The notes beneath the pieces were generated by a model. That model did no database searches. It was not told the origin of the DNA and saw only the letters and a list, made by a program, of their open reading frames with translations. A DNA stretch of 64,000 nucleotides, from the NCBI RefSeq assembly GCF_017168335.1, contig NZ_JABFAU010000003.1, positions 74,589 to 138,588 of the forward strand, written 5' to 3'. Of the stretch, positions 6,489 through 25,869 are shown in pieces. Both the position numbers and the translations under genes were made by a program. This DNA is from Rhodococcus sp. KRD162 (GTDB taxonomy: Bacteria; Actinomycetota; Actinomycetes; Mycobacteriales; Mycobacteriaceae). Numbering within the stretch: position 1 is the first letter of the stretch; each line of letters begins with the position of its first letter.

Positions 6489-6518
6489 CTGGAACCTCCT
6501 TCTTCGAATCTTGATCCC

Positions 6519-6542
6519 CATATGGAATATCTTCATATGGAA
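6519..6542 (-). promoter_or_regulatory. Direct repeat in the ureAB promoter region
   Basis: The nonamer CATATGGAA occurs twice, at 6519-6527 and 6534-6542, 15 bp apart, 31-54 bases before the ureAB start. Each copy contains the palindrome CATATG. It could be a regulator site or an AT-rich promoter element in otherwise GC-rich DNA. No known factor is assigned. Confidence 0.4.
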
Positions 6543-6592
6543 GTAGATTGGATGAACGTAAGGCACAGGCGAAGGTGCTGCAAGTTTCGTCT

Positions 6593-6610
6593 CCGGTATT
6601 CACATACCGG
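6593..6610. terminator. Short inverted repeat after the sensor gene
   Basis: CCGGTAT (6593-6599) and ATACCGG (6604-6610) form a 7-bp stem with a 4-base loop, about 17 bases past the stop of the cytoplasmic sensor gene and ahead of ureAB. It may be a weak terminator or an operator; there is no T-run. Confidence 0.35.
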
Positions 6611-6626
6611 TTACACGCCGGAAATA

Positions 6627-7703
6627 TCAGATGCGAGAAAGAACTTCGAAGTCGTAGCCGTCGGCCCGGGCGAGATGTACGTCGTGGAACCCTTGCGCGC
6701 CTTGGTACTCCACGACGCCGCGAGGTCCGTCGTACGCGAGCCCCGCAATCGAGGCTTTGATCGCCGTCATGTCGGTCGACCCGGCCCGCTCGACGAGATG
6801 CGCGAGCGTCAACATCCCCTCGTAGCAACTCTCGGCGGTATTGTTCAGAGGCGGCGCGAACGGGCCGTGGAATCCGGCATAGCGACTTTGCAGGTCGATC
6901 GTATTGGCTGAGACCAGCGAACGATAGTAGCCGGCAGAGGAATACAGGTTCTCGGTTGCATCGACACCGCTGCCCATCAACATGCTTTCGTCCATCAACG
7001 GGCTGTATCTGAGAATGTCTCGATCGAGCCCACGGCTCGCGAATTCGCGATTGAACAACACTGCGTCCTGCCCGACGAGGAACATGGCCACGGCGTCAGG
7101 CCTGTCGCGCTCGATGGTGTCGACGAGCGAGGTCAATGCCCGTTCGTCACCGAAGGCTGCGAAACCGATCGAAGACACGGTTATGCCGAGTGTCGGAGCA
7201 GCATCGATCACGAATCGAGAGGAAAAATGCGGCCATACGTAATCGTTGCCGACGACTGCCCAGCTGGCCACTGGAAAATTCTCGCGCAGCCAGGCAAGAG
7301 CGGGGGCCACTTGGACTGCAGGAACCTCGCCGACGTTGACCACGTCGGCACCAGGCAAGCCCTCGTGTAACGCGGTGAAGACATACGGGATACGACCGGC
7401 AACAGCCCCGACGATTGCATCGCGCACCAACGATGTATGCCAACCGGTGACGGCATGGATGTGACCGCGCTCGATCAGGGCGTCGAGTTCACGCGCTACC
7501 AGATGAGGCGCTCTGCCGGAATCGAGAACGACCGATGACACTTCTCGCCCGAGGACTCCCCCCTGGGAATTGATCTCGTGGACAGCGAGATCGACCACCG
7601 AACGGCACGAAGGCCCGAAAATTCCTCCGGAACCTTGCATCGGAATCGCGACACCGACAGCGAAGCGATCGCCCATGGGCGTCGTGTCGATTATCGTGGT
7701 CAT
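6627..7703 (-). CDS. Cytoplasmic UrtA/AmiC-like ligand-binding sensor
   Basis: A 358-residue protein with the fold of type I periplasmic-binding proteins of the UrtA/AmiC group: it begins almost at once with VGVAIPMQGSGGIFGPS and continues with VDLAVHEINSQGGVLGREV. There is no signal peptide or lipobox, so it should stay in the cytoplasm. AmiC of Pseudomonas is such a cytoplasmic sensor, releasing the antiterminator AmiR when amide binds. Sitting just upstream of ureAB on the same strand, it may sense urea or an amide and control the operon. No AmiR (ANTAR) partner is visible; the divergent MarR gene is the nearest regulator. The function is inferred. Confidence 0.75.
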   Translation of the reverse strand: MTTIIDTTPMGDRFAVGVAIPMQGSGGIFGPSCRSVVDLAVHEINSQGGVLGREVSSVVLDSGRAPHLVARELDALIERGHIHAVTGWHTSLVRDAIVGAVAGRIPYVFTALHEGLPGADVVNVGEVPAVQVAPALAWLRENFPVASWAVVGNDYVWPHFSSRFVIDAAPTLGITVSSIGFAAFGDERALTSLVDTIERDRPDAVAMFLVGQDAVLFNREFASRGLDRDILRYSPLMDESMLMGSGVDATENLYSSAGYYRSLVSANTIDLQSRYAGFHGPFAPPLNNTAESCYEGMLTLAHLVERAGSTDMTAIKASIAGLAYDGPRGVVEYQGAQGFHDVHLARADGYDFEVLSRI

Positions 7704-8865: not shown

Positions 8866-10104
8866 CTACGCATCTCGTGAATCGGGTAGCGCCCGGATGT
8901 GTCGGAGAAAGCAGCGAGCGGCGTCGAGTCGATCGGCGTCGTAGTCCTGCCATTTCGAGGCAGGAACGTCCTGGTGCGCAACCTCGACGAACCCCCGTCT
9001 CGCGAAGAACTCTGCAGCCTCCCCGCTGACCGTCACCGCAAACAGGTTGCTGACCCCTCGCTCACGGCAAATTCTCACCAGCCCGTCCATCAGTAGTCCG
9101 CCCGCGCCCAGCCCCGAGAACTCGGCCACTGTGATCAATCCGGAGACCTCTCCGAATCCCGTTCCGGCATAACGGTCCACCTCGAGACCGACGATTCCGG
9201 CAAGGTGTCCGGTGCGAAGGACCCGCGCACCGAGCCCGCCGACAGCCATTCTCGCAATCTCGATCCGGCTGCGCGGCTTGAGTACCCCTTCGTGTACCCC
9301 TTGCGCCACCAACGATTCGATGGCGGGAAAATCGTCCACTTGGAGTGCGGCGAGGTGAAGGTACCGACCCTGGGTCAAGACGGTCCCGCGGCCGTCGAAA
9401 GTGAGTAGTTCGAATTCGAGATCTTCTGCACAGCAGAGGTTTACGCTGTATGCGCCGCCTGCGAGAGCCTCTTGAGCAGCGGGTAGGAAATCGTCGAGCC
9501 CTCGTTCGGCCAGATGAGCGCCGAGACGCTCGCGGTGCACGTCGATATCCGCAAAGCTGCGGGGTGGGTTTCCCCAACCGCCGCCCGGATCGGTCAGCAC
9601 CGTCTTCGATGCACGAACGCTCGCCGACACGAAACCTGCCGTGCGCGCGACAGCGGAAGCCTCGGCACCGACAACAACGCATTGCGAGTCCGCGGTAGCG
9701 AGCCATAGATCGGCTACTCTGTCGTCGCTCCACACCGAGGACGCGTCCATTGTCAGACCACCGACGGCGTCGACGGTGGCCGAAACGCTGTCGACCGGTA
9801 CCACGAAGATGAAGCGCGTATCGCGAGCACCGAACTCGCCGACCGTGCGTGCCACCGTTTCCAACGCAACAGATCCCAGCACGGGAAGCGCGACAACGAT
9901 CGTGACCCCGCGGAACTCCTCGATGAAGAAGTCGCGCTCTGGAACAGGCACACCGCTCGATGTCAGTTCCACCGCGGCCTCGCGCGGTACAGGTCGTCTA
10001 GGACGCGGCACACGCGGATTCGTCCGCAGATCGTCGCTCGTCACGATCGGCCCAGATCCGATGGCCCGCGACCGTCTGGGTTCCCAACCTCGGTTCGGTG
10101 CCAC
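8866..10104 (-). CDS. ArgA-like two-domain protein (kinase-like domain + GNAT acetyltransferase)
   Basis: A 412-residue protein. Residues about 60-250 resemble the non-catalytic amino-acid-kinase-like domain of ArgA-type N-acetylglutamate synthases. The linker (ELLTFDGRGTVLTQGRY, then REIARMA-like RIEIARMAVGG) and the C-terminal GNAT domain (GLGAGGLLMDGLVRICRERG, the acetyl-CoA loop) follow the same order. It could make N-acetylglutamate for arginine synthesis, but many actinobacteria use ArgJ or a short ArgA, and no arg gene is nearby, so another amino-acid acetylation is possible. The first 60 residues are Arg/Pro-rich; a GTG at 10044 is an alternative start. Confidence 0.65.
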   Translation of the reverse strand: MAPNRGWEPRRSRAIGSGPIVTSDDLRTNPRVPRPRRPVPREAAVELTSSGVPVPERDFFIEEFRGVTIVVALPVLGSVALETVARTVGEFGARDTRFIFVVPVDSVSATVDAVGGLTMDASSVWSDDRVADLWLATADSQCVVVGAEASAVARTAGFVSASVRASKTVLTDPGGGWGNPPRSFADIDVHRERLGAHLAERGLDDFLPAAQEALAGGAYSVNLCCAEDLEFELLTFDGRGTVLTQGRYLHLAALQVDDFPAIESLVAQGVHEGVLKPRSRIEIARMAVGGLGARVLRTGHLAGIVGLEVDRYAGTGFGEVSGLITVAEFSGLGAGGLLMDGLVRICRERGVSNLFAVTVSGEAAEFFARRGFVEVAHQDVPASKWQDYDADRLDAARCFLRHIRALPDSRDA

Positions 10105-10247
10105 ATATATCGGTTCCAGGTCGGTGTACTCACCGGATCGAATTTACACCGGTGCCCGCCCGGCCGATGCTTCGGAGAAGTCGACGGTGGTGCGCTCCCT
10201 GGCACGAACCCGGGCGCTCCTCGATACCTGTGGCGTCGACCGAGTAG

Positions 10248-10547
10248 ATGCCCACCCCGACACAGGGCGACGACGTTGCCACGGTCGATCCGATTGTGCA
10301 CGCTCCCAACGGCATACAGTTCGATGTCGCTGTACGCTACGACTGCGAGATCGTCGTCACGATTGTCGGCGTCCCTACGGCGTGGGGCTGGGTCGATGAC
10401 GGCGGGCTCGACCTCCACTCCCCTGCACTTCGAGCTCTCGTTGACGAGATCGCATCGATCATCAACAGCTACAACCACTCCGGCCAAGACATCACCAACC
10501 GATTCTTCGGTCGAGTTCGCGTCGGAGACGCCACCGTCGTGTGGTGA
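10248..10547 (+). CDS. Hypothetical 99-residue protein
   Basis: A small soluble protein with no recognised domain. Its composition (acidic, with VAVRYDCEIVVTIVGVPTAWGW and a helical ALRALVDEIASIINSYN segment) looks protein-like, not like an antisense frame. It lies between the ArgA-like gene and the TetR gene, convergent with the latter. There is no clear ribosome site before the ATG, so the gene call itself is uncertain. Confidence 0.4.
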   Translation: MPTPTQGDDVATVDPIVHAPNGIQFDVAVRYDCEIVVTIVGVPTAWGWVDDGGLDLHSPALRALVDEIASIINSYNHSGQDITNRFFGRVRVGDATVVW

Positions 10548-10621
10548 CCGAAACGGGCGACCGTCAGCAAGGCGGAGGTTCTCGAAACGTCGGCAGTACA
10601 CCATGCTCCACTGCCAGAGAG

Positions 10622-11290
10622 CTACTTCTCGGTTGCGCGGGCCGCAAGCCCTGCGATGATCAGGTCGAGTCCCACGTCGAACTCGTCGCCGAAGTCGTAG
10701 CCGGGGCGCAGTGCACGGCCGAGAGCAAACTCCTTGAAATACGGCAGGACGCCGTCGGGAATAGACGCGAGGATTGTCTCGCCGAGCTCGGCGAGGTCGC
10801 GTTCACCATCGAAAGCCAAACTCAGTTCCTGTATCAAGAACCCGTACAGGTGAGCGTCGAGAACGGCGAACGCGTGCCCGGTCAACTCGAGTGACAGTCC
10901 ACCCTCGCGTAGACACCCGATCACCGCATCGTGGTGTTGCAACGTGGCGAATCCGGCGTTGCGTCGTGAGTCCATGAGGCCCACTGCCCATGGGTGCTTC
11001 TTGAGGACCCCCCGGGCCGACTGCGACCTCAGCCGCATTTCCGACTGCCAGTCAGCTCCGATGCGTGGCGCGTGAAATTCCGAGAACACCTCGTCGACCA
11101 TGCCGTCGAGCATGTCTTCCTTGTTCTTGACGTGGTGGTACAGCGACATCGCCTCCACGCCCAGTCGAGTGGCCACTCCACGCATCGAGACCGCGCGCAA
11201 CCCCTGACTGTCGGCGAGATCCATTGCGGACCGCACGATCTCGTCGCGGCCCAATGCGCTACCACGATGGATCTTTCTGCTGTCGGTCAT
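10622..11290 (-). CDS. TetR/AcrR-family repressor
   Basis: A 222-residue TetR protein. The DNA-binding domain is residues about 15-65 (RDEIVRSAMDLADSQG, VATRLGVEAMSLYHHVKNKEDML) and the C-terminal part is of the TetR_C type (HAFAVLDAHLYGFLIQEL). A longer upstream extension is open, but MTDSRKI is the sensible start. It is divergent from a quinone-reductase gene. Two identical-architecture operators, CTTAC-N3-GTAAG, lie between them, so autorepression and repression of the reductase are likely. Confidence 0.9.
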   Translation of the reverse strand: MTDSRKIHRGSALGRDEIVRSAMDLADSQGLRAVSMRGVATRLGVEAMSLYHHVKNKEDMLDGMVDEVFSEFHAPRIGADWQSEMRLRSQSARGVLKKHPWAVGLMDSRRNAGFATLQHHDAVIGCLREGGLSLELTGHAFAVLDAHLYGFLIQELSLAFDGERDLAELGETILASIPDGVLPYFKEFALGRALRPGYDFGDEFDVGLDLIIAGLAARATEK

Positions 11291-11329
11291 TTCTTCGCTT
11301 CCTCGATGTGTGCTGCAACCGTTGACGTT

Positions 11330-11342
11330 CTTACATCGTAAG
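11330..11342. promoter_or_regulatory. TetR operator copy 1 (CTTACATCGTAAG)
   Basis: A perfect 5-bp inverted repeat with a 3-base spacer, 40 bases before the repressor start. A second copy with the same half-sites lies at 11361-11373; the 31-bp offset is close to three helical turns, placing both on the same face of the DNA. Confidence 0.7.
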
Positions 11343-11360
11343 TCTATCGTCAGGATATGA

Positions 11361-11373
11361 CTTACAGTGTAAG
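11361..11373. promoter_or_regulatory. TetR operator copy 2 (CTTACAGTGTAAG)
   Basis: The second CTTAC-N3-GTAAG site lies 16 bases before the reductase ATG chosen here (11390). Its position argues against the upstream ATG at 11357 as the translation start, because the site would then be inside the coding region. Confidence 0.7.
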
Positions 11374-11389
11374 ACCACGAGCTGGGACC

Positions 11390-12355
11390 ATGCGGGCAGT
11401 CACTCAAAGCACCTACGGCGGCACCGACACACTGCATGTGAACGAGATACCGGTGCCGACCCCGGGGCCGCGCGAGGCCTTGGTCCGCGTCCGTGCCGTC
11501 GGGATCGACCGCGGAACCGTCCACCTCATGACCGGATTGCCGTATGCCGTCAGACTCGGATTCGGCCTGCGTCGGCCGAAAGCTGCCGTGATCGGCCGAG
11601 ATCTGGCCGGTGTGGTCGAGGCAGTCGGGGACGAGGTCACCTCCGTCGCTGTCGGTGACGAGATCATCGGCTCTGCCCGCGGGTCGCTGGCACAGTTCGC
11701 GGTGGTACCGGAGTCTCGCTTGTCCCCCAAGCCCGCGAGCTTGTCTTTCGAGGAGGCGTCCGTCCTACCGATCTCGGGCAGCACTGCGCTGCAAGCAGTT
11801 CGAGACGCAGGACGCGTCGAGCCCGGCAACCGAGTCCTGGTGATCGGCGCCTCCGGCGGTGTGGGATCGTTCGCCGTCCAGATCGCTGCGGCGCACGGCG
11901 CGGAGGTGATCGGCGTAGCGAGCGCGGCAAAAGCCGATCTCGTTCGAGCCCTCGGAGCCAACCGCGTCATCGACTACACCCGCGAGGACATCGACGTCCA
12001 TGGACCCTACGACGTGATCATCGACCTGGCGGGTCTCCGAACGATCGCTCGACTTCGACGCAGTCTGACCGCGAACGGAACGCTGGTGATCGCAGGCGGC
12101 GAGGGCGGAGACCGATGGCTGGGCGGAGCCCACCGCCAAATCGGGGCAGCGGCCCTCTCCCCCTTCGTCAGGCACCGGATCACAGCCCTGATCAGCAAAG
12201 AACGCGCAGCCGACTTCGCCGAACTGGCCTCGCTGGTCGAGGCCGGCTCAGTCCGACCTGCACTCGACCGCGTCTACTCCCTCGACCGAACGGCCGACGC
12301 AGTGGCAGACCTGGCCGCAGGCAAGGTCCGCGGGAAGACGGCAGTTCGGCTGTGA
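11390..12355 (+). CDS. NADPH:quinone reductase-like zinc-independent oxidoreductase (MDR family)
   Basis: A 321-residue medium-chain dehydrogenase/reductase lacking the zinc ligands. The N-terminal GroES-like domain (MRAVTQSTYGGTDTLHV; EALVRVRAVGIDRGTVH) is followed by a Rossmann domain with GASGGVGSFAVQIAAAHG at about residue 150. Family members typically start MRAV, which supports the ATG at 11390 over the one at 11357. It is controlled, by position, by the divergent TetR repressor. A role in detoxifying quinones or reactive carbonyls is plausible; the substrate is unknown. Confidence 0.85.
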   Translation: MRAVTQSTYGGTDTLHVNEIPVPTPGPREALVRVRAVGIDRGTVHLMTGLPYAVRLGFGLRRPKAAVIGRDLAGVVEAVGDEVTSVAVGDEIIGSARGSLAQFAVVPESRLSPKPASLSFEEASVLPISGSTALQAVRDAGRVEPGNRVLVIGASGGVGSFAVQIAAAHGAEVIGVASAAKADLVRALGANRVIDYTREDIDVHGPYDVIIDLAGLRTIARLRRSLTANGTLVIAGGEGGDRWLGGAHRQIGAAALSPFVRHRITALISKERAADFAELASLVEAGSVRPALDRVYSLDRTADAVADLAAGKVRGKTAVRL

Positions 12356-12429
12356 GCCACCCGACCGAACGACGACCGGGGCGGTCGAGCGCTGAGCGGA
12401 CAGCACGGCATCGATCGAGGACGTGAAAG

Positions 12430-12801
12430 TCAGTCGGAGGCAGGCGGAAACAAGTTGTGCAGTGTTCTGCGCAACGATTCGGAACTGACCGGTTTCGTGA
12501 GCTCGCCGGCCAGCCGAGCCGAGATGTCTGCCGACAGAGTCGAGTATTCGAGGATTCCTGTGACCAGCACGAAGGCCGGGGGGTCGTCGCGACGCTCCAC
12601 TTCTTCGAGGACGTCGATTCCCGTTCCCGATGGCAGGTGGAAGTCGGAAATCACCAAATCGTGGTGGGAGTCGACGACGGAATCGATCGCCTCGGTGGAG
12701 TCCGCAGCCTGATCTACCGCCCAACCGAGTCGACGCAGCATATGGCACAAGACCAGACGGCTGACGGCGTCGTCGTCGACCACGAGGGCAACGCGCGTCA
12801 T
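12430..12801 (-). CDS. Stand-alone CheY-like response regulator
   Basis: A 123-residue receiver domain with no output domain. Phospho-acceptor Asp53 (VISDFHLPSG), the acidic pair D10/D11 and K103 in TKPV are all present. It is the last gene of the eight-gene polysaccharide/partner-switching operon; its ATG shares one base with the stop of the preceding STAS gene. It could receive phosphate from the HPt domain of the hybrid kinase at 18879-21410 and act by protein contact, for example on the phosphatase or a STAS protein. That link is inferred. Confidence 0.88.
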   Translation of the reverse strand: MTRVALVVDDDAVSRLVLCHMLRRLGWAVDQAADSTEAIDSVVDSHHDLVISDFHLPSGTGIDVLEEVERRDDPPAFVLVTGILEYSTLSADISARLAGELTKPVSSESLRRTLHNLFPPASD

Positions 12802-13166
12802 CAGGTGGACCCGCTCTCGGTTGGATCCAACATCACGAAGATCTGGTCGAACTGAGTGAGCCGGAACACCCGCATTGCGTCGTCGGACCGAGGGCGAACC
12901 AACGTCACGGTTCCCCCTTCGAGCACGCGATCCCGACGGGCACGCGCGAGAACCGCAAGACCCGCACTGTCCACGAAGGTGACGGCAGCGAGGTCGATCA
13001 CCAAGTACTGCGCCGAAACGAGATCGTCCTGGGAGAGCCGTTCTCGCACGGTCACAGCTTCGACCATGTCCAATCGTCCACCGAGCACGAGAGTTGCTTC
13101 GCCTCTGCCCGCAGTGGAGACACTCATGCTGATTGCGGGAAATTCGGCCGCATCGAAATTCGTCAC
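12801..13166 (-). CDS. STAS-domain anti-sigma-factor antagonist (second of two)
   Basis: A 121-residue STAS protein. VTFVDSAGLAVLARARR carries the serine expected to be phosphorylated by the cognate kinase and dephosphorylated by the PP2C phosphatase. In partner switching the unphosphorylated STAS binds the kinase and frees its other target. The gene overlaps the kinase gene by four bases. With another STAS at 14967-15290, the operon offers two competing partners for one kinase. Confidence 0.9.
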   Translation of the reverse strand: MTNFDAAEFPAISMSVSTAGRGEATLVLGGRLDMVEAVTVRERLSQDDLVSAQYLVIDLAAVTFVDSAGLAVLARARRDRVLEGGTVTLVRPRSDDAMRVFRLTQFDQIFVMLDPTESGST

Positions 13167-13588
13167 TGACCACTGCTCCTGATGTCGATCCGTAACTCGA
13201 GGTGATTTCCGGATCCGATCCGTTCGTACGCGATCTCGCTGACGAGCGAGCGGATGATTCGCAGGCCGTAGCCACGGTCACTGAGCTCACCGGGCGAACG
13301 AACCGTCGGTCCCGGCAGTTCGAACACATCGCCCTGATCAGTCACACGCACTATGAGTCGGTCCGAACTGAGCACCAGACTCAGTTCGATCACTCCCCCC
13401 TCGGGAAGATTCGCATGGTCGATCACATTCATGCAGGCCTCGTGCACGGCCAGTTCGGCCCGGGGGAAAACATCCGCTGCCGCATCGGGTTCCAGCTGAT
13501 CCGTCGCAGCTTTGAGCCATCCACCGACCGCGCGCACGGCCAAAGCGTTCGGTTGCAGTTCCAGACGCGATTGCGAGAGTGTGGTCAT
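13163..13588 (-). CDS. RsbW/SpoIIAB-type anti-sigma kinase (HATPase_c)
   Basis: A 141-residue GHKL ATPase of the anti-sigma-factor type. The N-box is HEACMNVIDHAN at about residues 48-59, the G1 box is VTDQGDVFELP and a G2-like DRGYGLRIIRSLV follows. It would phosphorylate the STAS proteins encoded on either side and bind a target when they are phosphorylated. Classical targets are sigma factors, but none is encoded in this locus. It overlaps both neighbours by four bases. Confidence 0.9.
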   Translation of the reverse strand: MTTLSQSRLELQPNALAVRAVGGWLKAATDQLEPDAAADVFPRAELAVHEACMNVIDHANLPEGGVIELSLVLSSDRLIVRVTDQGDVFELPGPTVRSPGELSDRGYGLRIIRSLVSEIAYERIGSGNHLELRIDIRSSGQ

Positions 13589-14970
13589 GCCGGTGTACTC
13601 GAGTTCTTGAAGATCACGAGCGTGCAATCGTCGGAGGCCGTGCTGCCGGCCGCGAACGCATGGACCGCGTCGAGGATCGATTCCCCCACTGCAGAGGAGC
13701 GCTCGAGGTACAGCCTGTGGCACAACTGGTCGAACCGGTCGTATCCGAACAGGTTCCCGTTCGGGTCGGCCTGCTCGGTCAAGCCGTCGGAACCGAGGAT
13801 CAACCAGTGGCCGAGGTCGAGGTCGACCGTCGAAACGGTGGGCACCCGGCCTCGGATCACCCCGAGCGGCGGCACGGTCGCCGCAACAGGTTCTACTCCC
13901 GACGCCCGCACCGCGACGATCGGCGAGTGCCCGGCATTGACCAGGGAGATCGAGCGGCTCCGCTCGTCGACCACACCGAGGGCGAGGGTGATGAACATAC
14001 CCACCTCGTCCAAATGTTCGTACAGTTCGTCTTCGACACGACCGAAGACATCCACCACCGACGCTTCGGAATGGGCGAGGAAGGCCACTCTGCACGCAGC
14101 TACCGCGCGAGTCATCAACATTGCAGCTGGCAGGCCTTTACCTGCGACGTCTCCGACCGCGAACCAGATCGAGTTCTGTGTCTTACCGAACACGTAGAAA
14201 TCTCCACCGGTGAGCGAAGCAGGAGTGGTGCTGGCGAACACCTCGACCGCGCTCGACCGAGGTGGCTGCTCGATGATGACCGACTGCGCGAGCGCCGAAG
14301 CGAGTTGATGCTCACGCTCGACCGCCGCCCTCTCGAGTTCGTATCGATGCAGCTCGTTGAACGCGATCATCACGCCGAGCGCTGACACGATCGCGTCGAC
14401 GATCGGTAGATCCACTGTCGAAAACGGTTGGCCGGTCCGCCTGTAGAACCCGATGAAATTCCCGCCCTCGCCCTCGGGATCGAGCGTGGCAATGACTGCG
14501 TGGTCACCGTCGGTGGTGCGCAGCAATTGGCCGGGTGCCGCAGCGAGGCTGCGCCGAGCAGTCTCTGTACACGCATCGAGCCTCGCCGTGTCGCCCGCAG
14601 TAGCTCTGACCGTGCGTTCGGTGAACAATACGACGAGAAAGGAACTCGTCAACGCAAGCGCCTCGTCGAGCAACAGTCCGATAGTTTCGTCGCTCGCAGC
14701 ACCCTGGACATTGATCTGGGCCAGGGTCTTCATGGCATGGATGCGGTCCTGGCTGGCGATGAGGGCCTCGGTCAGTTCACCCTGCATCGACTGGAGGCCT
14801 CGGACCTCTGCACGTACCCGGCCAGCCAGACGGTCCACCTCCGCAACAGGCGTCGACTCCGACGTCCGATTTCCGGAAGCGTGCGCGATGAGCAGATCGA
14901 CCGCTTCGTCGAGCGACGTCGGTTCGATGGCCGCACGCTCACGACGAACCTGTGACGACGTCGTACTCAC
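13585..14970 (-). CDS. SpoIIE/RsbU-type PP2C phosphatase with GAF-like sensor domain
   Basis: A 461-residue protein. A coiled coil (about 45-85, DRLAGRVRAEVRGLQSMQ) leads into a GAF-like domain (about 90-220) and a SpoIIE-type PP2C domain (about 245-455). Metal-binding aspartates appear in TGGDFYVFGK, VGDVAGKGLPAAM, LGSDGLTEQ and ASDDCTLVIF. It would dephosphorylate STAS proteins in response to a cytoplasmic signal. It starts with GTG overlapping the upstream STAS stop. Confidence 0.92.
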   Translation of the reverse strand: MSTTSSQVRRERAAIEPTSLDEAVDLLIAHASGNRTSESTPVAEVDRLAGRVRAEVRGLQSMQGELTEALIASQDRIHAMKTLAQINVQGAASDETIGLLLDEALALTSSFLVVLFTERTVRATAGDTARLDACTETARRSLAAAPGQLLRTTDGDHAVIATLDPEGEGGNFIGFYRRTGQPFSTVDLPIVDAIVSALGVMIAFNELHRYELERAAVEREHQLASALAQSVIIEQPPRSSAVEVFASTTPASLTGGDFYVFGKTQNSIWFAVGDVAGKGLPAAMLMTRAVAACRVAFLAHSEASVVDVFGRVEDELYEHLDEVGMFITLALGVVDERSRSISLVNAGHSPIVAVRASGVEPVAATVPPLGVIRGRVPTVSTVDLDLGHWLILGSDGLTEQADPNGNLFGYDRFDQLCHRLYLERSSAVGESILDAVHAFAAGSTASDDCTLVIFKNSSTPA

Positions 14971-15290
14971 GACGCGCTCGTATCCGCGTCGTCGATGGTG
15001 AACACCTCTGCGAGGTCGGTGATTTCGAGGATGACGCGGACCGGGTCGGAGAGCTGGGTCAAGATGACCTCACCACCGAGCGCCGCGGCCGCCTTCTGCA
15101 GCCGCACGAGTTCGGCGAGCGCGGAAGAATCCACGAAGGCGACCTGCGACAGGTCGATGCGCACAGTGTTGTTCTCGGCTGTCACCAAAGGGAAAACGGC
15201 AGTTCGGAATCCATCGGTCTCGTGAGCGTCGAATCGGCCGACCAGGTGTACGAGCCGTTGTGACGGCTCGATTTCGGTTCTGATGATCAC
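14967..15290 (-). CDS. STAS-domain anti-sigma-factor antagonist (first of two)
   Basis: A 107-residue STAS protein; VAFVDSSALAELVRLQ contains the predicted phospho-serine. The GTG at 15290 is chosen because AAGGAG lies eight bases before it and because it overlaps the stop of the glycosyltransferase gene by four bases. This junction is where the polysaccharide genes pass directly into the signalling genes. A longer upstream frame merely overlaps the glycosyltransferase. Confidence 0.88.
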   Translation of the reverse strand: MIIRTEIEPSQRLVHLVGRFDAHETDGFRTAVFPLVTAENNTVRIDLSQVAFVDSSALAELVRLQKAAAALGGEVILTQLSDPVRVILEITDLAEVFTIDDADTSAS

Positions 15291-16126
15291 GGGCAGGTCT
15301 CCTTGTCGTTCGGCGTGGACGTCGCGGCTCGCGCGAGCGAGGAGTCGGGGCGCGTATATCGACCGCTGAGGTCGTAGCGGCGAATACGAATCAGGTCGCG
15401 TAGGAACTGCATGCTGACCTTGGCGGCCTCTACGGTCGAACCCGGAGCATCGATCCATTCGACCGGCACTTCGGCCGCACGATAGCCGACTTTGTTCGCG
15501 AGATAGAGGATTTCGAGGTCGAACGAGAAGCCATCGACGATCTGCATCGTGAACAGCGTCGATGCCGCATCTGCGGTGAAGAGCTTGAATCCACATTGGG
15601 TGTCGGACACCGTCACACCGAACCCTCTCGACACGACGACGCGAAGTGTCTTGCTCAGCACTCGCCGCGTCAGGCTCTTTCCGCTGACCGCTGCGCCCTT
15701 GGCTGCACGGGAGCCCACGACCACATCGAAGCCCTCGTCGATGAGCGAGTAGAGGCGGTCGAACTGTTCGATCGGCGTCGACTGGTCAGCGTCGGCGAAC
15801 AACACCACTTCTCCACGCGCAGCGAGCATTCCTCGTCGAACCGCGTCACCCTTCCCGGTGTTCTTCTCGGCGACGACGAGGGTCAAGTTGGCGAATCGCA
15901 GGTCTTCGACGAGTGCGACGGTCGTATCGGTCGAACCGTCGTCGGAGACGATCAGCTCCCAGGGCTCACTGCGGGCACTCATGTGCGTAGCGATCGCGCC
16001 GATGGTGGGAAGGATGCGCCATTCTTCGTTGTAGGCCGGAATGACCACGGATACAACGGGCTTGGCGCACAACGGCTCGGTGACCCACTTTCGGTAGGCA
16101 CGGTATGCGGACGAATCCTCGCTCAT
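15287..16126 (-). CDS. GT2 family glycosyltransferase (dolichyl/polyprenyl-phosphate sugar transferase-like)
   Basis: A 279-residue GT-A fold enzyme. VVSVVIPAYNEEWRI is the nucleotide-sugar-binding start, SDDGSTD and FADADQSTP (the DXD-type metal site) follow, and SDTQCGFKLF is typical of DPM1-like transferases. It would transfer a sugar to a polyprenyl phosphate or lipid carrier on the inner membrane face. The start at 16126 overlaps the flippase gene by four bases; a longer open extension upstream lies inside that gene and is not used. Confidence 0.88.
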   Translation of the reverse strand: MSEDSSAYRAYRKWVTEPLCAKPVVSVVIPAYNEEWRILPTIGAIATHMSARSEPWELIVSDDGSTDTTVALVEDLRFANLTLVVAEKNTGKGDAVRRGMLAARGEVVLFADADQSTPIEQFDRLYSLIDEGFDVVVGSRAAKGAAVSGKSLTRRVLSKTLRVVVSRGFGVTVSDTQCGFKLFTADAASTLFTMQIVDGFSFDLEILYLANKVGYRAAEVPVEWIDAPGSTVEAAKVSMQFLRDLIRIRRYDLSGRYTRPDSSLARAATSTPNDKETCP

Positions 16127-17406
16127 TGGAGGGCCTCTTTTCGGCTGCGGTTGGAAATCCACGTGCGCGTCATCGACCGGCTCCCGAGAGCGAGGATCAG
16201 GAACGCCATGGCAATGCCTTGCATCGCGATCAACGTCGTCATGTCGCTGTGCCAGATCAAGACCAGGACGAGTTGAAGCACAGCAGCGCCGAGGAGATAC
16301 CAGGATTCGGTCACCAGTGACTGCGAAAGTCTGTAGCTCGCCACGAGATTGCCGATCGCGAACAGTGTGGTCGTCCCGGCGTAGGCGGCCAATGGAATCG
16401 AGAGATCGGAGTACTCGGGGCCGAGGACGAATCCGAGCGCAGGTCCGCCGAGCCAGAGCGCTCCTACTGCGCACGTGGCGCCGATGCCGATGACGGCCAG
16501 GATGCCGAATCGGAGGACCTCCGATGACTCACGGCCTGCCGCATGACGCCGGGCAACGACCGGGAAAATCACCGTGGCAACCGACCATGCCAAGAAGAAC
16601 ACAGCACGGCCCACCAGCGCGACGGCAGCGTAGATGCCGGCATCGGTAGGGGTGAAATAAGCTTTCGCGACGAATATGTCGCTGTTGTTGGCGATGATCT
16701 GACCGATCAGGAGAACCGACACGAGACCGGCGTACGCCCGCACCTCGGCTCGATCGATACCGTTCCCGGTGCGTGGACTGCGAGACCTGCTCGCGATACC
16801 CACCACCACAGTGGTGACGACGAATGATGCTGTCAGAGCTACCGTCGCTCCTTCGACGCCGAAACCCATGGTCACCAGCAGCACGCCCAATCCGAGGCGA
16901 GTAACCATCTCCACGACGAACGAGAGAGCAAGGGGTCCGAACATCAAACGTGCTTGCATGACGCCGCGTCCGACCGCTTGGACGAGCCAGAACGGGATTC
17001 CCACGGCCAGTATCACGAACGGCCACGATGATGCCGTCTGAAAGATCGTCGACCAGAACGAGGATGCACCTGCAAGCACTACTGCGGTGACGACTCCGGA
17101 CCCGAGAGCGATGCGTCGGAGTCGACGAGCGAGGAGATCCGAGTCGCCCTCGAACCCCAGTTCGTCGGATCGTGAGATGAATCGTGCTGCTACCAACTGC
17201 AGACACAAAGCGATGGAGGTCAGACTGAACAGAAACGTCACCATGAGGTTGGCGTCCGAGAACTCCGCCGGTGTCAGCACGCGTCCGAGAAAGAGATTGA
17301 GTCCGTAGTTTCCGATGTTGGCGACCAGCATCGCGATCGCCAACATCGATCCACCGCCCACGAGCCTGCGACCGACCCTCGACGATGCCAATTCGGGAGC
17401 AGTCAT
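16123..17406 (-). CDS. Wzx-like polysaccharide flippase (MOP superfamily)
   Basis: A 427-residue protein with about twelve to fourteen hydrophobic helices. The N-terminus (GGGSMLAIAMLVANIGNYGLNLFLGRVLTPAEFSDAN, shown here only as position 10-45) is typical of oligosaccharide/teichoic-type flippases, which move lipid-linked sugars to the outer face. It is flanked and overlapped by GT4 and GT2 genes. No Wzy polymerase is obvious; the large GT-C-like protein encoded divergently could perform the extracellular step. Confidence 0.88.
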   Translation of the reverse strand: MTAPELASSRVGRRLVGGGSMLAIAMLVANIGNYGLNLFLGRVLTPAEFSDANLMVTFLFSLTSIALCLQLVAARFISRSDELGFEGDSDLLARRLRRIALGSGVVTAVVLAGASSFWSTIFQTASSWPFVILAVGIPFWLVQAVGRGVMQARLMFGPLALSFVVEMVTRLGLGVLLVTMGFGVEGATVALTASFVVTTVVVGIASRSRSPRTGNGIDRAEVRAYAGLVSVLLIGQIIANNSDIFVAKAYFTPTDAGIYAAVALVGRAVFFLAWSVATVIFPVVARRHAAGRESSEVLRFGILAVIGIGATCAVGALWLGGPALGFVLGPEYSDLSIPLAAYAGTTTLFAIGNLVASYRLSQSLVTESWYLLGAAVLQLVLVLIWHSDMTTLIAMQGIAMAFLILALGSRSMTRTWISNRSRKEALQ

Positions 17407-18617
17407 CTCGTCGTCCGCTTCGCGAGCAACCGCTGGATGTGCGCGACGTGCCACTGCACTACCTCGGACATGGGGATTCCGGTGGCGGCCGCAAAATTCC
17501 GCCGACCGAGCGCGGCGCGTTTGACCGGATCGTCGAGAACCTCGGCGATCGCGTCCGCGAGGCTCGATGGGTCACCCGGGCGGAAGTACACGCCGAGAAA
17601 ACCCTCCTCCTCGACGATGTCGACGAGATCACCGATCCGGGGTAGGACCGCAGCCCGCCCGTACTCCCCCGCCTGGTGAAGTACACCGGAACTTCCCGTG
17701 GTCGACGTGTACGGGAACGCAACGACGGACGCCGACAGAAACAGCGGTCCCACTTCGTTCTCGGCGATGTAGCCGGGGAACTCCAGATTCGGCACGTCCG
17801 CGTAGCGCTGCGCCGCCGATTCCATGTATCCGGCCGAGTTCGGACTATCGGTGCCTGCGAGCACGAGCCGAGTGTCGTCGTACCCCCGCGCCAGCAATTC
17901 TCGGTAGGCCTCCACCAGCATGTCGACGGTTTTGTACGTACCCCATTTACCGAACGCCATGATGGTCCGACGCCCCGGAGGGACCGAGAAAGTGGGCATT
18001 GCAACGTCCTCGAAGCTCCCGTGCGGGGCGAGGACGGCATTGTTCGCCCCATACTCTTCGCGGAGAAACTCGACGTATCGCGGGATCGTCAGCGCAACCA
18101 GGTCAGCGCGCAACAGAGCGCGCGTCAGAGCTCGACCAGCCGAAGTCATCAACTTGGCAGTCAGGGCTGAGCCTGCGAATCCCGCGTCCTTCATGTCGAC
18201 GTTGTCGGCAAGGTTGTGCAGTACTACCAGCGTCGGCACTCGCCACAGGCGAAGAGCTGCGGGAATCAGCAGTCCCAATGCTCCCGCAATCCGCTTGTCG
18301 CCGAAGGTCGCGAACTGCAGGTTGAGCAACACCGCGTCCGGATTCGATCGTTTGATCTCGCGTGGGACACGCCAGAGGTTGGTCAGAGCGTTGAAACGCC
18401 AGCATGGACGGAACGAGACGTTCTCCATGTGCTCAGATGCACCCTCAACGGTGTGGTCGGCGTACACGAGGACCTCGTCGACCTCCTCGAGACGAGAGAG
18501 GTGTTTGACCAAGTGGTAACCGAACTCGTTCAAGCTGTTGCGGCTCGGTGGGAAAGCCGAGACAACGCCGAGTCGCAGACCCTGCATTTCCGGCTGATCA
18601 TGCCGTCCATTCGTCAT
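17403..18617 (-). CDS. GT4 family glycosyltransferase
   Basis: A 404-residue GT-B enzyme. The N-terminal half starts LGVVSAFPPSRNSLNEFGYHL; the C-terminal nucleotide-sugar domain includes AFGKWGTYKTVDMLVEAYREL and VVAFPYTSTTGSSGVLHQAGEYG, the usual GT4 E-x7-E region being modified. It is the first gene of the leftward eight-gene operon and is read from the 261-bp region shared with the hybrid kinase gene. The sugar is unknown. Confidence 0.87.
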   Translation of the reverse strand: MTNGRHDQPEMQGLRLGVVSAFPPSRNSLNEFGYHLVKHLSRLEEVDEVLVYADHTVEGASEHMENVSFRPCWRFNALTNLWRVPREIKRSNPDAVLLNLQFATFGDKRIAGALGLLIPAALRLWRVPTLVVLHNLADNVDMKDAGFAGSALTAKLMTSAGRALTRALLRADLVALTIPRYVEFLREEYGANNAVLAPHGSFEDVAMPTFSVPPGRRTIMAFGKWGTYKTVDMLVEAYRELLARGYDDTRLVLAGTDSPNSAGYMESAAQRYADVPNLEFPGYIAENEVGPLFLSASVVAFPYTSTTGSSGVLHQAGEYGRAAVLPRIGDLVDIVEEEGFLGVYFRPGDPSSLADAIAEVLDDPVKRAALGRRNFAAATGIPMSEVVQWHVAHIQRLLAKRTTR

Positions 18618-18878
18618 TCGCCACGTCCCGACCTCGTCACACTGCAGGCAAAGTCCTTGCCGGCCGCCCAGTCCATTTCGTTCTTTGCCGCCGTCTCGTG
18701 AGACTCGAACGCCTCAACGCTGTTTGGGCAGTATCATAACGCCCAGTCGCTATTTTGGTTTCCAGTCACAGTTCGTATCGCTGAATCCGTTGCGTTTTCG
18801 GAGATTCGGCGTGCGGCGTGGCCCGATATGCCGAGTCCGGGTTTCGACTGCAACAGCGAGGGGAGGGGGCTCGAGGCA
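18618..18878. promoter_or_regulatory. Divergent promoter region of the polysaccharide locus
   Basis: This 261-bp region separates the leftward eight-gene operon from the rightward kinase operon and must hold the promoters of both. An AT-richer stretch around 18727-18760 (ATCATAACGCCC to CTATTTTGG) is a likely promoter site. I see no strong palindrome. A short extension of the kinase frame (ATG at 18828) is open but lacks a ribosome site. Confidence 0.5.
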
Positions 18879-21390
<2,512 letters not shown>

Positions 21391-21410
<20 letters not shown>

Positions 21411-24400
21411 ACGCTCGACGCCTGCCACTGCAGACGAAGCGATAGCACCCATCGTTCGGCCGGTCGGCGTCGACGGTCTGTCCACGAAGTGGATCACATT
21501 GGCCGTCGGCACGATCTATTACGTGGCATCGCTGGTCATCTTCCGGGACGTACTCACCGCGATACCGTCGGTGCTGCGGGGCGACGCGGTGATCGCGGGC
21601 GACGAACTGGTGCCGTTCTTCAACTGGCACAGCCAGTTGCTCGATCAAGCGGCCGGTGAGTTCAACGAGCTGGTCAACGGGTACGAGTTCCGGGTTCGAT
21701 ACTCGTTCCTCACCACCTGGTTTCGGTTCTACAAGGTTCTGCCGTTCGCCATCTTGCTCGTTCTCCCCACCCTGTTCTGGATCGCGTACCTCACGGTGAC
21801 GCGATTCATGGACAAGGTGTTCACCTCGCTGTCCTCGCAGGCGATCTACCTCGCGACGTTCTTTCCGATCTCCTTGATCTACCTGATCATGGTGTACTCC
21901 AAGGTCACCCACTTCTACACCCTGATCCTCGGCCTTGTCCTGCTGCTGATCTCCTCGCTGTGGATGCTCTACGCGCTGCTGTTCGCCGGACGCCCGTGGA
22001 AGCGCTACATGGTGCTCGCCTGCGTGAGTACCCTGTTCAACCCCGCGATCCACTACCTGGTGCTGTTCACGCTGTTTTTCGCGATCACCGGCGTCACCCT
22101 CCTCGCCGGTGAGGTCGGACGGTGGATACGGCGCGGCGGTCCCGCTCGCGCGCGGCATCTGCCGAAACGTGTGCGCACCTTGATCACCCGATCCGGCCGA
22201 GTCCAACGACTGCGGGCATGGCTCCATGTGGTCGGCGGCACCACGACCGGACGCCTGGTGGTCGCCGGTGTGCTGTACGTGATGATCACCCTGGTGCCCT
22301 ACGCCTTGTTCGTGAAGTACGTGGCGCTCGCGGGAGTGACCAATCTGAGCGACACGGTGCCCGGCGACTTCTACTTCATCCAGGACGCGTCGGTGTCGTG
22401 GCTGCACCTGTTGTCCTGGGATCTGGCCGGCATCACCGACAAGATCCTCTTCGGTGACTATCTGGCCAAGGTGCCGCGATATCCCAACGCGCTGTACACG
22501 ATTCTGATCTTCGTTCCCCTGATCGTTCCGCCGGTGCGCCGACGACTGTTCAACACCCGGTCACATCGGCAACTACTCGCGGTGATCTATGTGGCCATCG
22601 TCTTCGCGATGTGGGCCACTATCGGTTACGGCGAGCCCTTGTGGTTCCCGACCTTCCACCGCACCCTGGCCGCGCTGGCCATCACCGCCAACGAAAGCCA
22701 TTCCGCCATAGGCAACCTGGTGGTCACCGCCGCCGGCACCGTGGTGCAGATTCTGCGCTTCCCCCATCGGTTCCAGCTGATTCTGTTCATGCTCGCACCG
22801 CTGGTGATGTCGCTGACGTTGGCCTATCTGATCGACAGTGTCAGCGGCCGGTGGATGCGCATGCCGGCTCGCACCTCCAGGTCGACCCGCGCTGCCAGTT
22901 CGACCAGCACCGCCGGTTCGCGACTTCGACGGCGCCCCCGACCGAGCGCAGCGACCACGCACACCCGCAGCGCACTGCTCATCAAGCTGGTGGCAACGGC
23001 CTGCATCGGGCAAGTGTTCTTCACACCGTTCTGGGCCAACGATCCCTACCGAATGGTGTTCGCATCCGGCAACATGTCCGGATTCATGTCGCCCTTTCCC
23101 CTTCAGGATCTCAAGGAGTTGAAACAGGCGCTCAACGAGCTTCCCGAGGGCAAGACCGTCGTGATTCCGCCCACCGAGACCGCAAAGTTGGTCGAAGACT
23201 CCAACGGCATCGACCACAAGTTCATCGACAAGTTCTTCATCTACTACCTCGACAAACCGAGCTACTACTACGGGCTCACCGGCGACGTGAAGAACAAGTT
23301 CGAGTTCTTTCTCATCCTCCGCGGTCTCTACTACCAGCAGGACTGGTGGATCAACGAGGCGCGCGACATCGAGGTCAAGTACATCGTCGTCAACCGAAAG
23401 ATCCACGACAACGGAGGAATCGGTGCCGAATACCTCCCCGACGTCGAAAGCTACGTCGAGCCAGGATTGGCCAGACTCGGCGACGACGTGGCTCTGCGAT
23501 TCGAGAACGACAGCTACGCACTGTACGAGATCACCGATCAGCCTCGGCCCGAGCGCGAGACGCTGCTGGTGGACTCGAGTTGGCAGACCTACCTCGATCT
23601 GGTGTTCAACCGTCGAAACCTCAGTCGCTGCTACAAGTTCGAGTTCACACCGTATTTCGACCCGGCCAGCGTTCCCGCCGATGCACCGATACAGCTCATC
23701 ACCGACGACGAACGTACGTCGGCGCTGAACCTGTACCTGCTGAACAACCCCGATGCGATCTCGAGCCCCGACACCCGGATGTTCGCGTTCAATCCCGACG
23801 TCGTGGCGTCGAATTACTATCTGTCACCGATGTTTCGGTCGTTTCTGCTGTTCTCGAACACCAAGTGGAATCGCACGGGCATGATCACCCCGGGGGTGTT
23901 CGGTTCGCTGCGCGGATCGTTCATCGGCCTCCCCCGCGCCACCGAGATCGGCGTGCCCGTCGACGTCACCACCGCCGGAAAGTACCGAGTGCTGATGCGC
24001 TCGGCCAACACCGCGAACACCCTGCACATCACGTCACCGTCGCTGGCCTACGACCGGACGATCGAGCTTCGATCGCCCGCATCGAACGTGAAGCTTTTTC
24101 CCACCGACGACGTCTACACCAGCAATCGTGTGGCTGCCGACACCAGCGGCATGTCCGTCCAGGACTTGGAGAAGGCGATACCCGATCAGCTGGTGCCCGT
24201 GAACTCGGGCTTCAGCTATCAAGACCTGGGGACGGTGGACGCCGACGTCGGTGCGCACACGTTCGCCATCGACAAGACCGACACCAACCCGATGCTGTTC
24301 GAGGGGATGATGCTCATTCCCGAAGACGTCTACCAGAAGGTCACGCTGCCCTCGAACGTGAAACCCGTGCTCGATCCGAACACACTCGGATGCTCCGAAC

Positions 24401-24672
24401 GCACCAGGAGCGCGGGCGCGACCGACGGGTACGTCGACCCGGCCGCCAACCCGGCCAACGCGAATCTGACCCAGGACGAGCTACTGAATCTCGCGGCCGC
24501 CGACGTTCAGGACCTCGCACCGCCGGAGGGCGGCGTGGTGGGATCGAGCTGGCTGGGTGTCGCACTGACCGCCGTACTGCTCTTCGTCAGCGGACTCCTC
24601 GTTCGGTGGCGCGCGCGACTTCGACCCGACGAGTTCGACGACCCCCCAACAGAAAAGGAGAACTCGCCATGA
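21391..24672 (+). CDS. Large GT-C-like membrane protein with extracytoplasmic C-terminal domain
   Basis: A 1093-residue protein. About twelve membrane helices occupy residues 30-550 and a single helix (SSWLGVALTAVLLFVSGLLV) lies near residue 1060; between them is a long, probably extracytoplasmic beta-rich domain. The first loop has GDELVPFFNWHSQ, an acidic motif placed like the catalytic loop of GT-C enzymes that use polyprenyl-phosphate sugars. Size and layout recall mycobacterial arabinosyl or mannosyl transferases, but I cannot assign it to a family. Genes for a kinase upstream and a pyruvyltransferase downstream overlap it. It may polymerise or decorate the exported polysaccharide. Confidence 0.7.
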
Positions 24673-25823
24673 CCGAGCCCGCACGCAGAATCGTCTTCCT
24701 CGGAACCCACGGCCAGTACAACATCGGCGACGAGCTGCTCCTGGACACCTTCCTCACCCAGCTCGGGTCGCAGCACCACTACGTGGTGAACAGCTACGAC
24801 CCCGAGTTCACCAGGGCCCAGCTGGCGGGGCGCTTCGACGTCGAGGTCATCGACACCGCAGGTGACCGCCGAAGGTTACTGCGTGAGCTGATGCGTTGTG
24901 ACGTACTGTGTTTCGGAGGTGGATCGATCGTCAAGGAGCTCTACGCGTCGACCGGTCGCAATCGCTACTCGACTCTGCTGATGATTCTCGCGATCGTCAC
25001 CTTCACCCACCGCATCGCTCGCAAGCCCATCACCATGCTCAACGTCGGGGTCGGGCCGGTGCGCACTCCCCGCGGACGGCGACTCGCTCGAATGATCCTG
25101 TCTCAGGTCGACGAGCTCACGGTGCGCGACGAAAAGTCCCGCGCACTGTGCGCGTCGATCGGTATCACCCCGGTTCTGGCCACCGACGCGGTCTTCTCAG
25201 TAGACGCCGGATCACTTCTCGGTGGAACCGAAGCCGACCCTGTGGCAGATGGTTCCGATCCGGTTCGGGTAGCGCTGAACCTCAACTTCGATATCGAGAA
25301 CCCGGACAACTGGGAGTTGTTCCTCGACCGGCTCGCCACCGCCCTGGTGCGGGTCCACGAGCAGCGTCCGATCGAGCTGCACGCACTGCCCATGCAGGCC
25401 GGGTTCAAAGAGCACGACGACGCCGAGGTCTTGCAGGAGTTCTCCACCCGCGTTCCGTCCATCCGATTCGTCGAGCACGAGTTGACCTCGCCCGCCGACG
25501 CCGCCCGACTGATCCACAGTTGCGACGTCCTGGTGAGCGAACGGCTGCACGCCATCGTCATGGCATCGATCCTCGGAGTTCCGTCCTTCGTGCTCGCCTA
25601 CGACGTCAAGGTGCGCGAGCTGGCGTCGATGCTGGGGCTGGTTCCCTGGAGCGTCGACATCAACGAGCCCTTCGACGCCGACGACGTCGGTGACCGAATC
25701 CTCGACCTCATCGAGCAACGCGAGTCCGTCGCGGCCGAGGTGCATCGACATAGCGCAGAACTGGGGCAGAGGGCCAGGCGCAACTTCGAGTCAGCCAGAC
25801 AGTGGGTTGCAGCCGCCCGATGA
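24669..25823 (+). CDS. Polysaccharide pyruvyl transferase family protein (CsaB/WcaK-like)
   Basis: A 384-residue member of the polysaccharide pyruvyl transferase family, which adds ketal pyruvate from PEP to sugars of cell-wall or exopolysaccharides. GTHGQYNIGDELLLDTF is the N-terminal signature; CFGGGSIV and SERLHAIVMASILGVPSF are conserved motifs of the second half. It starts at an ATG overlapping the stop of the GT-C-like gene, with AAAAGGAG before it. Pyruvylation would give the product a negative charge. Confidence 0.88.
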   Translation: MTEPARRIVFLGTHGQYNIGDELLLDTFLTQLGSQHHYVVNSYDPEFTRAQLAGRFDVEVIDTAGDRRRLLRELMRCDVLCFGGGSIVKELYASTGRNRYSTLLMILAIVTFTHRIARKPITMLNVGVGPVRTPRGRRLARMILSQVDELTVRDEKSRALCASIGITPVLATDAVFSVDAGSLLGGTEADPVADGSDPVRVALNLNFDIENPDNWELFLDRLATALVRVHEQRPIELHALPMQAGFKEHDDAEVLQEFSTRVPSIRFVEHELTSPADAARLIHSCDVLVSERLHAIVMASILGVPSFVLAYDVKVRELASMLGLVPWSVDINEPFDADDVGDRILDLIEQRESVAAEVHRHSAELGQRARRNFESARQWVAAAR

Positions 25824-25869
25824 GCGAACCGGGCCGCGGCGAGGGCAACTCGAACGCCGCACGATGCAA

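Follow-up and report, generated by a model that had tools for sequence, protein, structure and literature searches.

A partner-switching cassette without a linked sigma factor gene, joined to predicted sugar-export genes in Rhodococcus sp. KRD162 and its relatives

Partner switching is textbook regulation for sigma factors. In Rhodococcus sp. KRD162, an eight-gene cassette combines a full set of partner-switching genes with two glycosyltransferase genes and a flippase gene, and sigma profile searches found no sigma factor gene among the open reading frames (ORFs) at positions 5001-32000 of the window, the whole 64,000-nucleotide stretch analyzed (positions 74,589 to 138,588 of contig NZ_JABFAU010000003.1). 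What, then, does this switch act on? Sequence comparisons indicate that it probably acts directly on a predicted membrane machine that builds and flips lipid-linked sugars. An earlier note, made from the letters of this DNA, had proposed that the kinase or the STAS proteins may act in this way. This reading now has the best support, which comes from RsbW-type domains fused to the flippase of Chloroflexi-type relatives and from loci that lack the kinase and the phosphatase and yet group two STAS genes with the sugar genes.

Gene content and order of the cassette

The cassette occupies positions 18617 to 12430 of the minus strand, and all eight of its proteins matched Pfam above the curated cut-offs. 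It begins with a GT4 glycosyltransferase (17403..18617; PF13692, 63.7 bits against a cut-off of 27), a Wzx-like MOP-family flippase (16123..17406), and a GT2 glycosyltransferase resembling polyprenyl-phosphate sugar synthases (15287..16126; PF00535, 94 bits). Five switch genes follow: the single-domain STAS protein STAS1 (14967..15290; GTG start; PF01740, 58.8 bits), with a predicted phospho-Ser in FVDSSAL; a SpoIIE/RsbU-type PP2C phosphatase (13585..14970; GTG start; PF07228, 132.8 bits); an RsbW-type HATPase_c_2 serine kinase (13163..13588; PF13581, 61.4 bits); a second single-domain STAS protein, STAS2 (12801..13166; GTG start; PF01740, 50.1 bits), with a predicted phospho-Ser in FVDSAGL; and a lone receiver (REC) protein (12430..12801; PF00072, 60.9 bits). 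Structure matches gave the flippase the MOP fold of the Wzx/MurJ/MATE superfamily, and a solved-structure sequence search with the window flippase returned no flippase. The nearest solved chains by sequence were the ArnC-type transferase 9bhc and, lower in the list, dolichol-phosphate mannose synthase 5mlz for GT2, and RsbW (6m36, E 1.4e-5) for the kinase, whose closest solved relatives are RsbW and SpoIIAB.

Read from the sequence, the first six junctions of the cassette are 4-nucleotide overlaps of the form ATGA or GTGA, and the STAS2-REC junction is a 1-nucleotide overlap (TGATG). These readings confirmed the eight-gene minus-strand operon with seven overlaps of 4 or 1 bases that the earlier note had described. 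Its further claim that the overlaps imply fixed stoichiometry was not borne out: across the relatives described below, such an overlap was possible at only 116 of 227 junctions, a count that omits fused genes and pairs with ends more than 3 kb apart. The gene order is therefore conserved and the overlap is not.

Relatives were collected by a pattern scan of a species-genome collection, which gave 52 loci as a lower bound; 38 of these contain the cassette, whole or in part, and form the basis of our counts. The order GT4-flippase-GT2-STAS1-PP2C-kinase-STAS2-REC recurred in 26 of the 38, so that the gene order in the window is more than chance. All 26 loci are actinobacterial in the broad sense, including Acidimicrobiales and Ilumatobacter. 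Four Chloroflexi loci showed the rearranged order GT2-GT4-STAS1-PP2C-kinase-STAS2-REC-flippase, the flippase gene of L073 was set apart from the cassette, and L041, L060, L063, and L086 were cut at contig ends. By homology to the window, we found GT4 in 34 of the 38 loci, the flippase and GT2 in 33 each, STAS1 in 36, PP2C and the kinase in all 38, STAS2 in 37, and the receiver in 35; the last count does not include L070 and L082, although both have a receiver-family gene, or L041, whose sequence stops short of the receiver. A one-strain curiosity, with synteny confined to KRD162, was ruled out by this conserved order and by PP2C relatives in other genomes. The actinobacterial scope suggested earlier proved too narrow, as the cassette also occurs beyond a single family and outside the actinomycetes.

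The 14 loci left out of the counts (L051, L076, L079-L081, L083-L085, and L087-L092) contained no flippase or GT2 match, and GT4-type matches, themselves weak (25-27 bits), were found in L079 only. A kinase-type ATPase was encoded beside or near PP2C in L051, L076, L079, L080, L081, L083, L084, and L085, accompanied by STAS in all of these except L051. Judged by these matches, distant switches lacking this sugar set exist.

Across the 38 loci and the window, the D-S motif was kept in 37 of 37 STAS1 rows and 38 of 38 STAS2 rows; we take its Ser to be the phosphorylation site, as in SpoIIAA and RsbV. The N-box Glu and Asn of the kinase were present in 39 of 39 rows, the metal-binding Asp of the PP2C GGD motif in 38 of 39 (the remaining row is truncated), and the phospho-acceptor Asp of the receiver in 36 of 36. 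The hallmarks of partner switching, namely a phosphorylatable STAS Ser, an N-box kinase, and the SpoIIE-type PP2C Asp, were all found.

GT4 and GT2 were the most conserved cassette proteins, with mean pairwise identities of 0.65 and 0.62 over 30 rows, and the window GT4 shared 47-81% identity with 25 aligned relatives. In the 30 rows with all eight proteins, distance correlations among the eight genes ranged from r 0.73 to 0.95, values reached in none of 300 permutations, and the main clades of the GT4 and PP2C trees agreed. As signs of contact, we give these results little weight, because shared cluster ancestry yields them without contact and because some rows are faulty (five GT2 rows and one PP2C row run past a stop codon, and in L056-L058 the same fused chain stands for both flippase and GT2).

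Links between the switch and the sugar proteins

The flippase gene of L077 encodes about 260 N-terminal residues that match HATPase_c_2 in two stretches (PF13581, 3.4e-17), followed by the flippase. An RsbW-type ATPase and a flippase in one chain were found in 49 of the 120 listed relatives of the L077 protein, out of 250 that passed; 37 of the 120 were aligned. The ATPase part was N-terminal in 47 of the 49, whereas P0191 and P0203 carried a single C-terminal ATPase domain, a difference in placement that suggests two separate fusion events. Inspected by eye, the first domain of the N-terminal pair (domain A) lacked the N-box and the second (domain B) stopped before the last motif, and Tyr replaced the N-box Asn in P0191 and P0203. 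The fused domains resemble altered kinases that may retain STAS binding. In P0121, structure matches spanned the flippase part only (258-678); the fused ATPase part gave no structural match and was identified from Pfam. P0127 (935 residues; receiver, RsbW-type domains, and flippase) was rejected as a receiver fusion, because the alignment shows signs of a frameshift at its REC end and in its C-terminal tail, and is still counted among the 49. Two further kinds of fusion were a flippase-GT2 chain in L056 and a PP2C-kinase chain in L062.

Loci without a recognizable kinase came from a search led by GT4, in which PP2C was not used. An alignment of 26 GT4 proteins, searched against 394 class genomes and 396 phylum genomes, matched at 1e-60 in four and three of them, respectively, the KRD162 genome being counted in both. 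Five new loci (L119-L123) were obtained in this way, all with GT4, GT2, the flippase, and two STAS genes, and two of the five (L119 and L122) had the full eight-gene order. The fetched loci L120, L121, and L123 gave no PP2C or kinase match, and every PF07228 match in these three genomes lay on another contig. At the site of the conserved Ser, STAS1 of these loci read D-R, D-R, and D-T, and STAS2 had a residue other than Ser, in contrast to the D-S found throughout the 38 loci and the window.

In the mechanism that we propose, the histidine kinase encoded divergently from the cassette would relay phosphate, through REC and Hpt domains of its own, to the lone receiver, as its domains and the gene order suggest, and the receiver would shift the balance between the RsbW-type kinase and PP2C. 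Going by the conserved motifs and the known chemistry of these families, the kinase and the phosphatase would set the phosphorylation of the conserved Ser of STAS1 and STAS2. Unphosphorylated STAS would then dock on the flippase or on the neighboring glycosyltransferase and alter export, where a classical switch would release a sigma factor. In Chloroflexi, the docking site may be the altered RsbW-type domain on the flippase, with the flippase and the free kinase competing for STAS. Within the sugar arm, GT2 would make a polyprenyl-phosphate sugar, the flippase would move the lipid-linked sugar outward, and the divergently encoded GT-C protein would use the sugar outside. The direction of STAS control over export is one that we infer. 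A more specific version, in which the flippase replaces the sigma factor, STAS shuttles between the free kinase and a kinase-derived docking domain, and a histidine phosphorelay gates surface-glycan export post-translationally, is tentative, and we place it somewhat short of an even chance; in several lineages, an H-NOX gene neighbors its proposed relay.

Several observations weigh against direct action on the sugar machinery. The window flippase has no fused ATPase domain, and the ATPase-flippase fusions with a named source belong to Chloroflexi-type relatives. Domain B of the fused pair, where an aligned row includes it, retained both N-box residues (Glu and Asn; 35 of 35 rows) and is not plainly dead, and the G1 motif of the free kinase deviates from D-x-G in two rows. 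L052, a 4.5-kb contig, holds PP2C-kinase-STAS2-REC without STAS1 or sugar genes. Replacement of the STAS Ser was seen in three loci only, two of them from one genus; the Thr of L123 could itself be phosphorylated, and about 2.7 kb past the fetched stretch of L123 lies an ATPase-like frame of 683 amino acids (33 bits to PF13581). The KRD162 genome carries a SigB/F/G-type sigma gene on another contig (C56, 291.8 bits), which makes action on an unlinked sigma factor possible there. Finally, in Cellulomonas (L054 and L055), a histidine kinase, GT4, and the five-gene switch were found together, the available locus DNA yielding neither a flippase nor GT2. As Cellulomonas keeps only GT4 and the switch, the flippase cannot be the sole target.

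Alternative targets of the switch

The Cellulomonas loci favor the alternative that the direct target is GT4 (or GT2) and that the flippase fusion is a lineage-specific addition. There, GT4 alone of the three sugar genes was found, and its presence in 34 of the 38 loci, its leading place with GT2 in sequence conservation, and the position of STAS1 after GT2 or GT4 in most loci agree with such a target. A precedent for a link between STAS and a glycosyltransferase is all4160, a cyanobacterial glycosyltransferase with an N-terminal STAS domain that is cited in the available text of PMC8256260. On the other hand, the fusions of switch and sugar proteins met here involve the flippase only, although STAS-glycosyltransferase fusions in this family were not searched for. 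We regard a GT4 or GT2 target as possible and lean mildly away from it. As to the sugar protein that is touched, the fusions point to the flippase and the Cellulomonas loci to GT4.

In a second alternative, the RsbW-type kinase would serve as an ordinary anti-sigma factor, its partner being a SigB/SigF-type sigma factor encoded elsewhere in the genome, and the switch would control the sugar genes only because that sigma factor transcribes the operon. Elsewhere, phosphatases, STAS proteins, and kinases of these three families govern sigma factors, the closest solved relatives of the kinase are the anti-sigma factors named above, and KRD162 has one SigB/F/G-type sigma over the cut-off and 15 Sigma70_r2 matches. 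We searched 4,202 ORFs from the 38 loci and window positions 5001-32000 with profiles built from 20 fetched sigma proteins, 6 SigA-like and 14 extracytoplasmic function (ECF)-like by our own grouping on size and mutual similarity; a leave-one-out check, which recovered 20 of 20, was done by phmmer among the 20 sequences and not with the profiles. The SigA-type profile matched nothing in this set. ECF-type matches were found in L055, L056, and L064, each outside the cassette, and single-sequence phmmer added one weak match (L061; one query, 3.4e-6), likewise beyond the cassette. A SigB/F/G profile, made from five proteins fetched with an NCBIfam model, gave three weak matches (18.7-30.9 bits), which are the ORFs of L055, L056, and L064 that the ECF-type profile scores better, and nothing in L119-L123. 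The absence of a sigma factor that the earlier note had reported for the cassette therefore held for the window ORFs searched and, for SigA- and SigB/F/G-type genes, extended to the 38 loci. A sigma gene close to the cassette in relatives was rejected on the same grounds.

At the genome level, TIGR02980 matched over its curated cut-off in 4 of 11 cassette genomes: KRD162 itself (G000), G181 (L044), G189 (L056), and G197 (L072). In the other seven, including Agreia (L042) and Homoserinibacter (L048), no SigB/F/G-type sigma exceeded the cut-off; the best matches in L042 and L048 reached 130 bits (cut-off 234) in frames of 455 and 494 amino acids, the size of primary sigma factors. If the assemblies are complete, a SigB/F/G-type target is unlikely in these seven genomes. 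The window kinase itself scored 33.6 bits against the RsbW NCBIfam equivalog, far under the cut-off of 145, and the linked cognate SigB/SigF-type sigma gene of an RsbW/SpoIIAB anti-sigma factor was found in neither the 38 loci nor the window. Together with the ATPase-flippase fusions and the two STAS genes that stand beside sugar genes without a kinase, these results make an ordinary anti-sigma role unlikely. That the switch and sugar genes merely travel together by gene transfer, with no functional contact, would suit their patchy distribution and the 2.1 kb of a related genome that stand opposite 15.8 kb of the window, and is very improbable given that sugar genes are linked to the five switch genes, themselves in one order, in two phyla, that three kinds of fusion occur, and that kinase, phosphatase, and phospho-Ser are absent jointly.

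Flanking genes, inputs, and distribution

Across the intergenic region 18618-18827, a divergent plus-strand operon, which the earlier note had missed, extends from 18828 to 25823. It encodes the hybrid histidine kinase HisKA-HATPase-REC-Hpt (18828..21410; four Pfam domains above the cut-off), whose start is uncertain between 18828 and 18879; a large membrane protein of 1093 residues with a GT-C membrane fold, predicted to be a GT-C glycosyltransferase with a C-terminal beta-sandwich domain (21391..24672), for which the solved-structure sequence search was empty; and a polysaccharide pyruvyl transferase family protein (24669..25823; PF04230, 104 bits) whose gene overlaps the preceding GT-C gene by 4 nucleotides. 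FeoB lies further on, at 26299. The divergent trio seems to complete the cassette system.

Histidine kinase parts varied among the loci. The hybrid kinase family of the window (F7) occurred in 18 loci, counting the window, and 10 Acidimicrobiales loci had a second kinase family (F10, one member scanned); in L045, a lone Hpt protein follows the receiver. This variation fits a phosphorelay that would end on the lone receiver. H-NOX genes of family F9 sit with histidine kinases near the cassette in 10 Acidimicrobiales loci (e.g., L061 4589-5140, the scanned member, and L059 843-1394). L121, one of the kinase-less loci, encodes a histidine kinase, a DNA-binding response regulator, and an H-NOX protein (6316-6852; haem-NO-binding, PF07700, scanned). 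The H-NOX genes suggest nitric oxide as one input to the cassette.

The N-terminal region of the window PP2C had no Pfam match. Its residues ~12-200 matched longer open frames weakly (28-32%), mostly from genus g18 of the same family, and this shared region is perhaps a sensor domain. Downstream of the receiver, seven actinomycete loci (L042, L046-L050, and L053) carry a gene of the endonuclease/exonuclease/phosphatase family (F12, assigned from one member, L049, scanned with Pfam); L121 8409-9269 was added by eye. Other large proteins occur in some loci (F11, of ~1100 residues, F15, and F18; e.g., L050 13458-17627 and L049 13440-16868). Their scanned members had no Pfam match over the cut-off, and they are possibly alternative output enzymes.

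The cassette was missing from most sampled relatives of KRD162 and is rare, being present in 1 of 37 genus genomes and 4 of 394 class genomes, its own genome counted in both. Among 151 sampled family genomes, none of the 150 besides KRD162 encoded a close relative of the window PP2C; the best matches there were partial in length and at most 35% identical. Likewise, the window itself gave the single ortholog-level GT2 match in the 37 genus genomes, the others being at most 33% identical among strong matches. PP2C relatives of 50-67% identity were found in Microbacteriaceae, Pseudonocardiaceae, others, and one genome bin named Rhodococcus, and a plasmid search with PP2C gave only matches of <60% identity, in 211 records. 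Genome G157, from the same genus, kept the flanks (FeoB 95% identical) and lacked the cassette block, with ~2.1 kb (L124 7418-9508) opposite window 10062-25868 (15.8 kb). The block is present or absent in an island-like manner in this comparison.

No paper on the cassette was found in the open-licence literature, as judged by title and the start of the abstract. Like RsbU-RsbV-RsbW and SpoIIE-SpoIIAA-SpoIIAB, the switches of SigB and SigF, it has a PP2C phosphatase, STAS with D-S, and an HATPase_c_2 kinase. Unlike them, it lacks a linked sigma gene, includes a receiver and a second STAS protein, encodes glycosyltransferases and a flippase in the operon, and, in some lineages, has an ATPase domain fused to the flippase. 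Multi-component transmembrane glycosylation systems such as CsbB/GtcA/YfhO (available text of PMC8035078 and PMC7389260) also resemble it. In those systems, a GT2, a flippase, and a GT-C transferase reportedly act in three steps, a logic that the cassette shares; it differs in its linked MOP-type flippase and in its GT4, pyruvyl transferase, and partner switch, the GtcA family not having been searched for.

Parallels on the switch side are described in the available text of the literature on polysaccharide control. SypA/SypE of Vibrio fischeri (PMC8256260, PMC4517449, and PMC10120452) is also a STAS switch at a polysaccharide locus; unlike in the cassette, kinase and phosphatase are combined in one dual protein, SypE, and the text of PMC8256260 at hand does not mention a flippase fusion. 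HmpU/HmpV/HmpW of Nostoc punctiforme likewise ties a phosphatase, a STAS protein, and a kinase to motility and polysaccharide, without a GT4-flippase-GT2 and receiver arrangement in that text. In all4160 of Anabaena, STAS is physically linked to a glycosyltransferase by fusion, whereas STAS is separate in the cassette and the fused part in its relatives is an ATPase on the flippase. For the terms searched in PMC9239167, one mention came up, in the reference list. The direct targets of SypA and HmpV are described as unknown in the review PMC8256260. In the cassette, the switch and its candidate target share an operon, and in Chloroflexi-type relatives that target and an RsbW-type domain share a polypeptide, so that the direct target of a sigma-free STAS switch becomes testable with a handful of proteins. 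If the proposed action is correct, a serine-phosphorylation switch would gate the export of lipid-linked glycans post-translationally in bacteria.

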